Shown one piece after another: positions 3 to 5,158 of a stretch of DNA of 5,254 bases (position 1 is its first letter; each line of letters opens with the position of its first letter). A model generated the notes under the pieces. The model had not been told where the DNA came from, searched no databases, and saw only the letters and a program-made list of their open reading frames with translations. Source of the DNA: Eubacteriales bacterium (GTDB lineage Bacteria; Bacillota_A; Clostridia; Christensenellales; Aristaeellaceae); the NCBI GenBank assembly GCA_028692205.1, contig JAQUXV010000218.1, positions 1 to 5,254 of the forward strand, in the 5' to 3' direction. Position numbers and translations under genes: made by a program.

Positions 3-395
3 GAATCGCCCAACCGGGTTTGCTGGTCTACCATGCGGGGGCGCAGCGCCCTGCGCCTGCCCCTGCCGCAGAACCGTTTCGCGCGGATGCAGATTGCCAG
101 CCCCGATCCCACCTGCAACGCCTACCTTGCCTATTCCCTGTTGATTCGTGCGGCGCTGGAGGGCATTGAGGGGCGGGAGGAACTGCCGTCCTCGGCGGGC
201 CGGAACTGGCTTGATGCGCCCACGCTGCCCGAAAGCCTGCCCGACGCCCTCGAAACGGCGAAAAACAGCGCGTTTATCGCGCGGAGCCTTCCGGAATCGG
301 TACGGATGTCCTTCCTGGAAGGCGGCGAGAAGCTGCTGACCCTGGACCGGCAGGATAAGACGGGTTTATTCCAGAAGCAGTTTGAGCGTTTCTAG
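3..395 (+). CDS. glnA: Glutamine synthetase, C-terminal fragment (5' end outside window)
   Basis: This is the last 130 codons of a type I-like glutamine synthetase, the cytosolic enzyme that makes glutamine from glutamate, ammonia and ATP. The reading frame is open from base 3 to the TAG at 393-395; the start lies upstream of the window. Visible family motifs are RGRSALRLP (residues 12-20 of the fragment), matching the NRSxxxRIP substrate-binding segment, and ASPDPTCNAYLA, matching the RSPDPSxNPYLA strand-helix region, followed by a LEGIEG turn. The C-terminal helical part ends in KQFERF. The NLYDLPPE segment that carries the adenylylated tyrosine in proteobacterial enzymes is absent and the loop is short, so control by adenylylation is unlikely. 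The gene is followed after 28 bases by an ANTAR regulator, an arrangement known from Clostridia. Whether it is a canonical GlnA or a GlnA-like paralogue cannot be decided from the tail alone. Confidence 0.88.
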   Translation, partial: ESPNRVCWSTMRGRSALRLPLPQNRFARMQIASPDPTCNAYLAYSLLIRAALEGIEGREELPSSAGRNWLDAPTLPESLPDALETAKNSAFIARSLPESVRMSFLEGGEKLLTLDRQDKTGLFQKQFERF

Positions 396-423: not shown

Positions 424-993
424 ATGGCTGATGGGAAGACCCTGCTGGTTGCCTCACAGGGGGCGGAAAAACTGAAGCAATGGCTGGCGGATGTGAACAC
501 CGGTGAACTTATCGCGGTTCACACGGCGGGTGAAGCGCGGCGTATCGCGTCGGGCGACGCCTATTCGTTGATGCTGATCAACGCGCCGCTGATGGACGAA
601 ACCGGGCTGGAGCTGGCGATTGATATGGCGAAACGAACCACGGCCGCTGTGGTGATGCTGGTGAAAACCGAGCTTGCGCCGATGATCAGCGACGCGGCGA
701 CGGAATCCGGCGTGCTGCTGGTAACCAAGCCTGTGATCCCCCAGATTTTTGAACAGACCATCCGCGTGGGCATCGCGTGCCGCAACCGGATGTTGCTGTA
801 TAAAAGCGAAACCGAGCGCCTGCAGAAAAAATACGAGGAACTGAAGATTGTCGACCGCGCCAAGTGCCTGTTGATTGAGCATATGCGCATCACCGAGGAG
901 GAAGCCCACCGCGTCATCGAAAAAGAAGCGATGGACACCCGTGTAACGCGTGTGCGTGTAGCCAAACAGGTGTTGGAACGGTTTGAACTGTAA
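424..993 (+). CDS. ANTAR-domain response-regulator-like RNA-binding antiterminator
   Basis: This complete 189-residue protein begins MADGKTLLVASQ. Residues 1-115 have the length and pattern of a CheY-like receiver domain and residues about 128-187 form an ANTAR domain. A coiled-coil-like helix (about 120-143, with KSETERLQKKYEEL) joins them. ANTAR hallmarks are DRAKCLLIE (144-152), EEEAHRVI (158-165), EAMD (168-171) and VAKQVL (179-184). ANTAR proteins (AmiR, NasT, EutV) bind paired hexaloop RNA hairpins and prevent intrinsic termination. In the receiver part, the position of the phospho-acceptor aspartate is Asn53 (LMLIN, then APLMDETGLE), and the acidic pair expected after the first strand is missing (VASQ). 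The lysine of the KP motif is kept (Lys102-Pro103). It is therefore probably phosphorylation-independent (inference). It follows glutamine synthetase in one operon, so a role in nitrogen control is likely. A GlnR-type ANTAR protein beside glnA has been described in solventogenic Clostridium. No histidine kinase is nearby. Confidence 0.9.
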   Translation: MADGKTLLVASQGAEKLKQWLADVNTGELIAVHTAGEARRIASGDAYSLMLINAPLMDETGLELAIDMAKRTTAAVVMLVKTELAPMISDAATESGVLLVTKPVIPQIFEQTIRVGIACRNRMLLYKSETERLQKKYEELKIVDRAKCLLIEHMRITEEEAHRVIEKEAMDTRVTRVRVAKQVLERFEL

Positions 994-1056: not shown

Positions 1057-1248
1057 AAGCGACGTGTTTGTAGAGAACACGTCGCTTCAGCATGCTGAAA
1101 AAGGCTCATCTGCATTGTCGCCTGCGCCGCAACGGGCGGTCACGTACGTCCGTGTACGCTCCCGCCCGAGTGCGGCTTGGCTTCGCGCATCTGAACCTTT
1201 TTGAGCAAGCTGGACTTGCGTGCTTGCAGGAGGTTTATCAAAGGGATG
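1057..1248 (+). repeat. Array unit 1
   Basis: The hairpin is 1057-1087 (12-bp perfect stem, loop tgtagag) and the core is 1088-1248. The core opens with a palindrome centred on gcatgc (1086-1099). It then has a long nested hairpin (1126-1176): gccgca pairs with tgcggc, cgggcgg with ccgcccg, and cacg with cgtg around the hexaloop tacgtc. A further hairpin pairs gcaag with cttgc at 1205-1219. Confidence 0.9.
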
Positions 1249-1440
1249 AAGCGACGTGTTTGTAGAGAACACGTCGCTTCAGCATGCTGAAAAAGGCCCA
1301 TCTGCATTGTCGCCTACGCCGCAACGGGCGGTTACGAACGTCCGTGTACGCTCCCGCCCAAGTGCGGCTTGGCTTCGCGCATCTGAACCTTTTTGAGCAA
1401 GCTGGACTTGCGTGCTTGCAGGAGGTTTGTCAAAGGGATG
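1249..1440 (+). repeat. Array unit 2
   Basis: The hairpin is 1249-1279 and the core 1280-1440. By hand alignment it differs from core 1 at six positions. One change weakens the closing pair of the cgggcgg stem. Another turns the apical stem pair C-G into T-G, so the four-pair apical stem can still form, with loop aacgtc (1337-1342). Confidence 0.9.
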
Positions 1441-1632
1441 AAGCGACGTGTTTGTAGAGAACACGTCGCTTCAGCATGCTGAAAAAGGCCCATCTGCATT
1501 GTCGCCTACGCCGCAACGGGCGGTTACGAACGTCCGTGTACGCTCCCGCCCAAGTGCGGCTTGGCTTCGCGCATCTGAACCTTTTTGAGCAAGCTGGACT
1601 TGCGTGCTTGCAGAAGGTTTATCAAAGGGATG
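1441..1632 (+). repeat. Array unit 3
   Basis: The hairpin is 1441-1471 and the core 1472-1632. It shares all but one of the core-2-specific changes and differs from core 2 at only two positions (caggagg to cagaagg, and tttgtc to tttatc). Units 2 and 3 therefore look like the most recent duplication or conversion in the array. Confidence 0.9.
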
Positions 1633-1824
1633 AAGCGACGTGTTTGTAGAGAACACGTCGCTTCAGCTTGCTGAAAAAAGCCCATCTGCATTGTCGCCTG
1701 CGCCGCAACGGGCGGTCACGTACGTCCGTGTACGCTCCCGCCCGAGTGCGGCTTGGCTTCGCGCATCTGAACCTTTTTGAGCAAGCTGGACTTGCGTGCT
1801 TGCAGGAGGTTTATCAATAGCCTG
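1633..1824 (+). repeat. Array unit 4
   Basis: The hairpin is 1633-1663 and the core 1664-1824. Its central part equals core 1 rather than cores 2 and 3. It differs at the 5' end (gcttgc in place of the gcatgc palindrome) and at its last eight or so bases (aatagcctg in place of aaagggatg), next to the closing hairpin. Confidence 0.9.
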
Positions 1825-1858
1825 AAGCGACGTGTTATGGAGAACACGTCGCTTTTTT
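1825..1858 (+). terminator. Intrinsic terminator closing the array
   Basis: A 12-bp perfect stem (1825-1836 with 1843-1854) with loop atggag runs into six T residues (1853-1858). This is the only hairpin of the array followed by a T-run. On the + strand it is a good rho-independent terminator for the glutamine synthetase-ANTAR transcript, about 830 bases after the last gene. Read on the minus strand it has no T-run. It is likely the ancestral terminator from which the other hairpin copies arose (inference). Confidence 0.8.
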
Positions 1859-4777: not shown

Positions 4778-4996
4778 GAAGCGGCAGCCCGTCGGGGGGC
4801 TGCCGCTTCAGCCTGCAGAAAAAGGCTCATCTGCATTGCCGCCTGCGCCGCAACAGGCGGTCACGTACATCCGTGTGCACTCCCGCTCGAGCGCGGCTTG
4901 GCTTCGCGTATCTGAACCATTTTAAGCAAGCCGAGCTTGCGAATTTACAAGAGCCCTGTAACGGTTAAAAGCGGCAGCTATAAGAGCCCGCCGCTT
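4778..4996 (+). repeat. Dispersed fifth copy of the hairpin-plus-core element
   Basis: The left hairpin (4778-4809) has a 13-bp perfect stem, gaagcggcagccc with gggctgccgcttc, and loop gtcggg. The core (4809-4968) is 160 bases against 161 in the array and aligns without gaps over its first 133 bases, with about 15 substitutions by hand count; the last 27 or so bases have diverged. The right hairpin (4969-4996) starts with the same aagcggcagc as the left one but has decayed, with a 7-bp stem aagcggc/gccgctt. Hairpin-to-hairpin distance is 190 bases against 192 in the array. The stem sequence is unrelated to the array's apart from its aagcg/cgctt base. Orientation is the same as in the array (+), although both flanking genes are on the minus strand. 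Confidence 0.88.
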
Positions 4997-5023
4997 CAAT
5001 TTCGTTGTATTGGGAATATAGCC

Positions 5024-5035: not shown

Positions 5036-5108
5036 ATTTAGCGGTTTTTATTCTGCAAAGGTGAAAACTGCCGCACGCCCCGATGAAGCCGTTCCAACCG
5101 GATAAAGC

Positions 5109-5138
5109 AAAGCCGCCGGGAGCTTTCCCGGCGGCTTT
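5109..5138 (-). terminator. Terminator of the right-edge gene
   Basis: A 12-bp perfect GC-rich stem, aaagccgccggg with cccggcggcttt, encloses a 6-base loop. It lies 20 bases after the stop codon of the minus-strand gene at the right edge. The T-run is only CTTTGCTTTA on the minus strand, but stem strength and position favour an intrinsic terminator. The symmetric ends mean it could also act on the + strand. Confidence 0.7.
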
Positions 5139-5158
5139 GGATAAGGAAGGAGAATGGT

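Follow-up and report, generated by a model that had tools for sequence, protein, structure and literature searches.

The window analyzed here, i.e., the whole 5,254-nt stretch of contig JAQUXV010000218.1 from an Eubacteriales bacterium, carries a gene encoding an ANTAR-domain regulator (424..993, + strand; ORF with a PF03861 match) and, 3′ of this gene, an array of four tandem units plus a closing hairpin (1057-1854, + strand). The period of the array is 192: each of the first four hairpins (1057..1087, 1249..1279, 1441..1471 and 1633..1663, + strand), all 31 nt long and corresponding to AAGCGACGTGTTTGTAGAGAACACGTCGCTT, precedes a core of some 161 nt (1088..1248, 1280..1440, 1472..1632 and 1664..1824 for units 1 to 4, + strand). 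The first hairpin is the left copy of a duplicated terminator-like stem-loop; the fifth one (1825..1854, + strand, 30 nt) is the sole array copy with a T-run after it. Units diverge at 2 to 11 of the 192 positions, the closest pair being units 2 and 3, and the left and right hairpins of the array match with a score of 46. The left end, TCAGCATGCTGAAAAAG (1087..1103, + strand), and the right end, TCAGGCTATTGATAAAC (1809..1825, − strand), show five and four mismatches, respectively, over 17 positions to the terminal repeat consensus of the IS1182-type elements presented below; only 0.095% of 20000 random 17-mers from six loci of a related genome, G002, have five mismatches or fewer. The right ends of units 1 to 4 have 6, 5, 6 and 4 mismatches, and the left ends found in the window 4-6. 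The core of unit 1 has a strong predicted fold as single-strand DNA (z = -3.3; none of 200 shuffles equally stable). No transposase gene was found in this element of about 160 nt: the mechanically delimited ORFs of the array reach at most 70 aa (61-70 aa), and searching with the ORF antisense to unit 1 retrieved no homologue. Judging from these data, the element of the window can only be a derivative without its own transposase.

A dispersed copy (4778-4997) consists of a left hairpin with a perfect stem (4778..4809, + strand), a core (4810..4967, + strand, its right limit being approximate) and an imperfect right hairpin (4968..4997, + strand). Its core, of about 160 nt between hairpins like that of the array, is 87% identical to the array reference over 150 ungapped nt. 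Coordinates and alignment thus confirm the preliminary description, which reported a conserved core bounded by other hairpins at a second locus of the window. This description was also right in stating that the right hairpin repeats the local stem start, since the first 10 nt (AAGCGGCAGC) are common to both hairpins; loop and inner stem are not. The change of hairpin from one locus to the other stands, with one correction: the closing hairpin of the array is also slightly unlike the other four. With a left-right score of 20, compared to a cross-locus 99% level of 19 and a maximum of 22 (870 pairs), the dispersed copy is among the weaker cases of hairpin match. Its left end (4808..4824, + strand) has four mismatches of 17, and no recognizable IS-type end was found on its right side (10 mismatches of 17 at best).

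Related genomes were reached via the ANTAR protein of the window. One of them, G002, contains 13 diverged matches to the window element, which together with the array and the dispersed copy make up a set of 15 loci; the copies of G001, G011, G018 and G231 were left out of it. For each locus, the 48 nt on the left of the element were compared with those on its right, and the threshold was taken from 870 cross-locus pairs pooled together, whose scores have a 99% level of 19 and a maximum of 22. In the preliminary description, the element was suggested to target hairpins and duplicate them, in which case the two hairpins of a locus should be more alike than those of different loci. Nine of the 15 copies are above the threshold, and the sum of matches observed was not attained in any of 20000 permutations, a result also obtained for each of the two other sets presented below. 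One of these nine (C193), like the dispersed copy of the window, has a score of 20 and lies under the cross-locus maximum. Two others (C296, score 18; C77, score 17) fall just under the level, each outranking all 14 other right flanks, and four (C111, C152, C184 and C129) have left and right hairpins without match. Element ends abut a stem-loop (score of 6 or more) in 21 of 30 cases, compared to 13% of 4000 random positions.

No hairpin duplication was seen by eye in the related elements of G018, G011 and G001. Three tandem arrays of G018 (L197, L198 and L199) comprise copies, about 129 nt apart, of a shorter related unit without the right-hand tail; the inner stem of this unit varies by eye among copies. 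A family-wide search gave matches at E ≤0.001 in five of 300 genomes (two candidates scored per genome), so that the form found in the window looks rare in this sample; the match in G231, 29 bases only, may be due to chance. Searches for exact core patterns (a 25-base one in viral contigs and a looser one in genome contigs) and of the core in plasmid and phage collections gave no match.

Another genome, G062, harbors a MITE of about 200 bp with 40 matches listed, whose identity to the query is 85-97% within the stretch matched. The window core has homology to the inner part of this MITE (scores of 61 with unit 1 and 40 with the dispersed copy, compared to maxima of 33 and 34 in 1000 mononucleotide shuffles). 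Among the 40 listed copies, 37 were fetched and four of them run off contig ends, leaving 33 for the hairpin comparison. The threshold was the 99% level of the cross-locus pairs of this set (21; the maximum of 40 is due to loci with similar hairpins). The two hairpins of a copy match above this level in 28 of the 33 cases, and a stem-loop lies directly against 64 of the 66 ends. According to a hand count, the matched stretch has the length of one hairpin in 21 of the 28 copies and is within 2 nt of it in 26, the two departures being L331 (11 nt) and L341; apart from L331, matched lengths range from 17 to 38 nt. Among the five copies that fail, L338 is truncated on its right side, the two hairpins differ in L312 and in L334, and L307 and L308 show a crosswise arrangement, the right hairpin of one being the left hairpin of the other, which points either to exchange among copies or to a join made in assembly. 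In four of the 29 copies listed for this comparison (L331, L333, L337 and L341), the right hairpin is closer to the left one as its reverse complement, which reads as if the loop was inverted; L331 is a weak case with a poorly placed hairpin.

The ends of the G062 elements and most ends of the G002 ones resemble the terminal repeats, close to TCAGACYRTCRACAAAG, of IS1182-family ISs found in the bacterial family to which G002 belongs. The transposases of two of these ISs (L232 and L228) match the NCBIfam IS1182 model NF033551 above its cut-off as well as PF05598 and PF13751, the gene of L228 (= L247) having an internal stop. When ends were scored over 17 positions against the IS consensus, with shifts of the start by up to 2 permitted, 11 of the 13 left ends of G002 had 4-7 mismatches and 10 of the 13 right ends 2-7, compared to random positions (n = 20000, same treatment) of which 5% have at most seven mismatches and 0.2% at most four. 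The left ends of the G002 and window copies fit the IS consensus more poorly (4-7 mismatches), and no end with seven mismatches or fewer was found on either side of C129 and C77 or on the right side of C137. In G002, the search for an autonomous IS bearing IS-type ends was negative: the sole PF05598 match of this genome (L166) has an internal stop, and no G002-type end with five mismatches or fewer was found in that locus. Candidate ends in five contigs of G002 (C138, C216, C332, C297 and C246) do not form a pair like that of the element and were rejected. In G062, one locus (L255) carries an IS1182 with an uninterrupted reading frame and IS-type ends. The elements of the window, G002 and G062 share several features of MITEs: (i) a small size (about 160-200 bp) and no transposase gene, (ii) multiple dispersed copies, (iii) terminal inverted repeats in the array, the G062 copies and most G002 copies, and (iv) a target site duplication in the 9/15 and 28/33 copies mentioned above. 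A related autonomous element was found in the same genome for G062 (L255) and not for G002.

The IS1182 copies themselves were compared in the same way. Their end consensus was drawn by inspection, when some flanking hairpins were already visible; loci L215-L273 were screened by paired ends alone, and the ends of one copy (L224 and L259) were paired by eye and later confirmed. This gave 15 distinct copies with both ends and both flanks. In nine of them, an identical whole stem-loop of 18-31 nt opens both flanks, the match exceeding the 99% level given by 870 pairs pooled across loci. The length of the duplication is that of the left stem-loop in eight of these nine copies (18 versus 16 nt in L243), and all 32 ends examined (17 loci, two with one flank only) abut a stem-loop. 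The six other copies, including the IS of G062 (L255), have two different hairpins. A distant partner was searched for in all six, in stretches of 3.2-19.9 kb, and only L270 (= L302) gave a positive result: its left hairpin recurs 1.1 kb past the IS, beside a third end. The mobile unit at this locus is, by its sequence, the IS plus a passenger stretch, which explains the mismatch of its immediate hairpins. At L270:2921-4068, the 1.1-kb passenger has, by eye, a reading frame of about 190 aa and is followed by the third end, beyond which stands the 38-nt hairpin also found on the left. No second copy of the hairpin was found in the fetched stretches of the five others. Flanks unrelated to each other, which the preliminary description regarded as contrary to its proposal, do occur (4/15 copies in the window and G002, 5/33 in G062 and 6/15 ISs); a few are explained and most are not. 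A single hairpin sequence common to all loci, another pattern regarded in this way, was not found.

Other IS1182 elements were encountered. Three of them (L167, L226 and L237), which have GGACCTGTTGA-like ends, show no hairpin duplication by eye. In G147, two IS1182 ends lie 8 kb apart within a single contig (L303:3481-11527), each against the same 28-nt hairpin, and this IS was apparently interrupted by a later insertion. In G155, a dispersed repeat of about 170 nt (L244:1266-1441), with at least 17 further matches in this genome, is found beside an IS1182 copy.

Sites devoid of element were also compared, since the proposal implies that they keep one hairpin. The site of one G062 MITE (L313) has a counterpart in G160, where the same two genes flank aligned parts 56 bases apart, with a single hairpin of related sequence and no MITE. 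Three other genomes with both genes (G146, G016 and G089) carry spacers of 305, 755 and 202 bases, respectively, that are too divergent to be informative. For the IS locus of G280 (L248), 27 of the 29 genomes searched (G280 counted among them) match the left flank. Among 11 orthologues inspected by eye over 170 nt, 10 lack an IS and have a single clear hairpin shortly after the same gene, L296 being unclear. These 10 orthologues have nine different stems (only L290 and L291 are alike), which indicates that the stems of these probable terminators drift fast between species. An identical pair of stems at one locus therefore reflects a recent duplication. The expected single hairpin is thus retained in G160 and in the 10 orthologues of the G280 locus.

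Long and variable target duplications are made by some transposons, for example kin of IS1634. It could thus be supposed that the element merely prefers intergenic DNA and that hairpins lie within its duplications by chance. The duplication lengths do vary (about 17-38 nt), and direct repeats of 2-60 bp are attributed to IS1182 by ISfinder, as cited in the accessible text of a review of IS982 (PMC7335449). However, the duplications run from foot to foot of the stem-loop and correspond to the hairpin in 8/9 ISs and, within 2 nt, in 26/28 G062 copies, so that this explanation, already disfavoured, seems very improbable. The hairpins could instead belong to the element and drift by compensatory changes, gene conversion keeping the two hairpins of a locus alike. 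In agreement with this, loops differ and stems agree in C347 and L341, and inner stems also vary by eye among relatives. Yet, the hairpins are specific to each locus even though G062 copies share 85-97% identity with the query over the stretch matched, and sites without element retain one hairpin. We consider this combination highly improbable; free drift of the stem, put forward in the preliminary description as the alternative to targeting, does not by itself account for the exact left-right identity within a locus.

Terminators are among the targets of group IIC introns, and the core of unit 1 folds strongly; a structured RNA or a retroelement resembling these introns, inserted beside terminators, would be compatible with both. 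However, the ends resemble those of IS1182, and to our knowledge a duplicated hairpin is not expected from group II introns. An Rfam search of the window up to E = 1 gave no intron match and a single hit, to the RcsR1 sRNA (5036-5141; 21 bits compared to a gathering score of 60), which lies outside the element and is probably due to chance. In the fold predicted for 34 G062 copies, 11 changes are compensatory, 59 one-sided and 52 broken among 1793 cells, which is too few compensatory changes to argue for an RNA function. Such an RNA or retroelement appears extremely improbable. The comparison with group IIC introns made in the preliminary description holds as an analogy only, given the lack of an Rfam intron match and ends like those of DDE transposons. 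Overall, the intron, structured-RNA and chance-length readings were set aside on the evidence of the ends, of Rfam and of the tracking of hairpin length.

We therefore favor the reading in which the element is a MITE moved by an IS1182-type transposase, this element and the ISs inserting at the base of probable terminator stem-loops and duplicating the whole stem-loop (probability of about 0.83). As far as sequence comparison can establish them, its foundations are the duplication of hairpins specific to each locus, a duplication length that tracks the hairpin, the similarity of ends and the empty sites. The target duplication thus appears to owe its size to hairpin shape and not to a fixed cut. 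In the mechanism that we propose, the target palindrome would be extruded in the cell as a cruciform, the transposase would act at the 5′ feet of the extruded stem-loop, and gap filling would copy the stem-loops, leaving a complete hairpin on either side. Since the stem-loop would be copied by gap filling, the length of the duplication would follow that of the hairpin. The window element, too, was presumably moved by an IS1182 transposase. The 192-bp array would most simply result from unequal recombination between direct repeats, either hairpin or core. It is likely, in our opinion, that DDE transposition takes place here in a mode where target shape defines the duplication. Each insertion would then duplicate one complete terminator, whatever its sequence, and MITEs would use this as a safe haven, with a full hairpin kept by the upstream gene.

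Several aspects of this behavior are already known. According to the accessible text of Wan et al. 2017 (PMC5678879), where it is credited to Siguier et al., some IS1182 members target palindromes. As here, IS1272 and TnSha1 have an IS1182-family transposase and stem-loop targets recognized by structure, several of which are terminators (PMC5678879, PMC4923244). However, as far as these sources describe it, IS1272 replaces its target stem-loop (PMC5678879) and TnSha1 deletes a part of it (PMC4923244), in both cases without duplication, whereas both hairpins are kept in the matching loci that we found. TnSha1 has three inverted repeats (PMC5678879, available part), as does L270. Wan et al. drew the routes open to a DDE element that meets a cruciform: the stem-loop is lost when joining occurs at the 3′ feet, which is their model for IS1272, and joining at the 5′ feet (pathway b, Fig 13) would duplicate the whole stem-loop (PMC5678879). 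The latter was drawn as a possibility, and no example was found in the accessible text; our matching loci fit this pathway. The direct repeats of 2-60 bp known for IS1182 are not tied in length to hairpins in the accessible part of PMC7335449. Prokaryotic MITEs such as RUP, BOX, ERIC and QMITE are likewise short, intergenic, multi-copy and IS-like, but no duplication of terminator hairpins is described for them in the part of PMC10969869 available, unlike here. ISs that target REP sequences also use palindromes (PMC1525189, available part), REP sequences in their case and hairpins varying between loci in ours. Beyond pathway b, no duplication of a whole hairpin by IS1182 or MITEs was found in the literature covered, which includes few subscription papers.

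This work brings together, in uncultured Clostridia, short non-coding elements and related transposons that sit on gene-ending stem-loops, often flanked on both sides by a full copy of the stem-loop. Target duplications are usually of a fixed few bases and are a signature of the transposase. Here, their length tracks the secondary structure of the target, which provides natural evidence for a route so far drawn as a possibility, and, for one type of target and one transposase family, an outcome opposite to that of IS1272. Cruciform extrusion at terminators thereby becomes testable in cells, and paired locus-specific hairpins flanking a repeat offer a signature for annotation. Overall, these results suggest a way in which such elements may spread without parting operons from their terminators.
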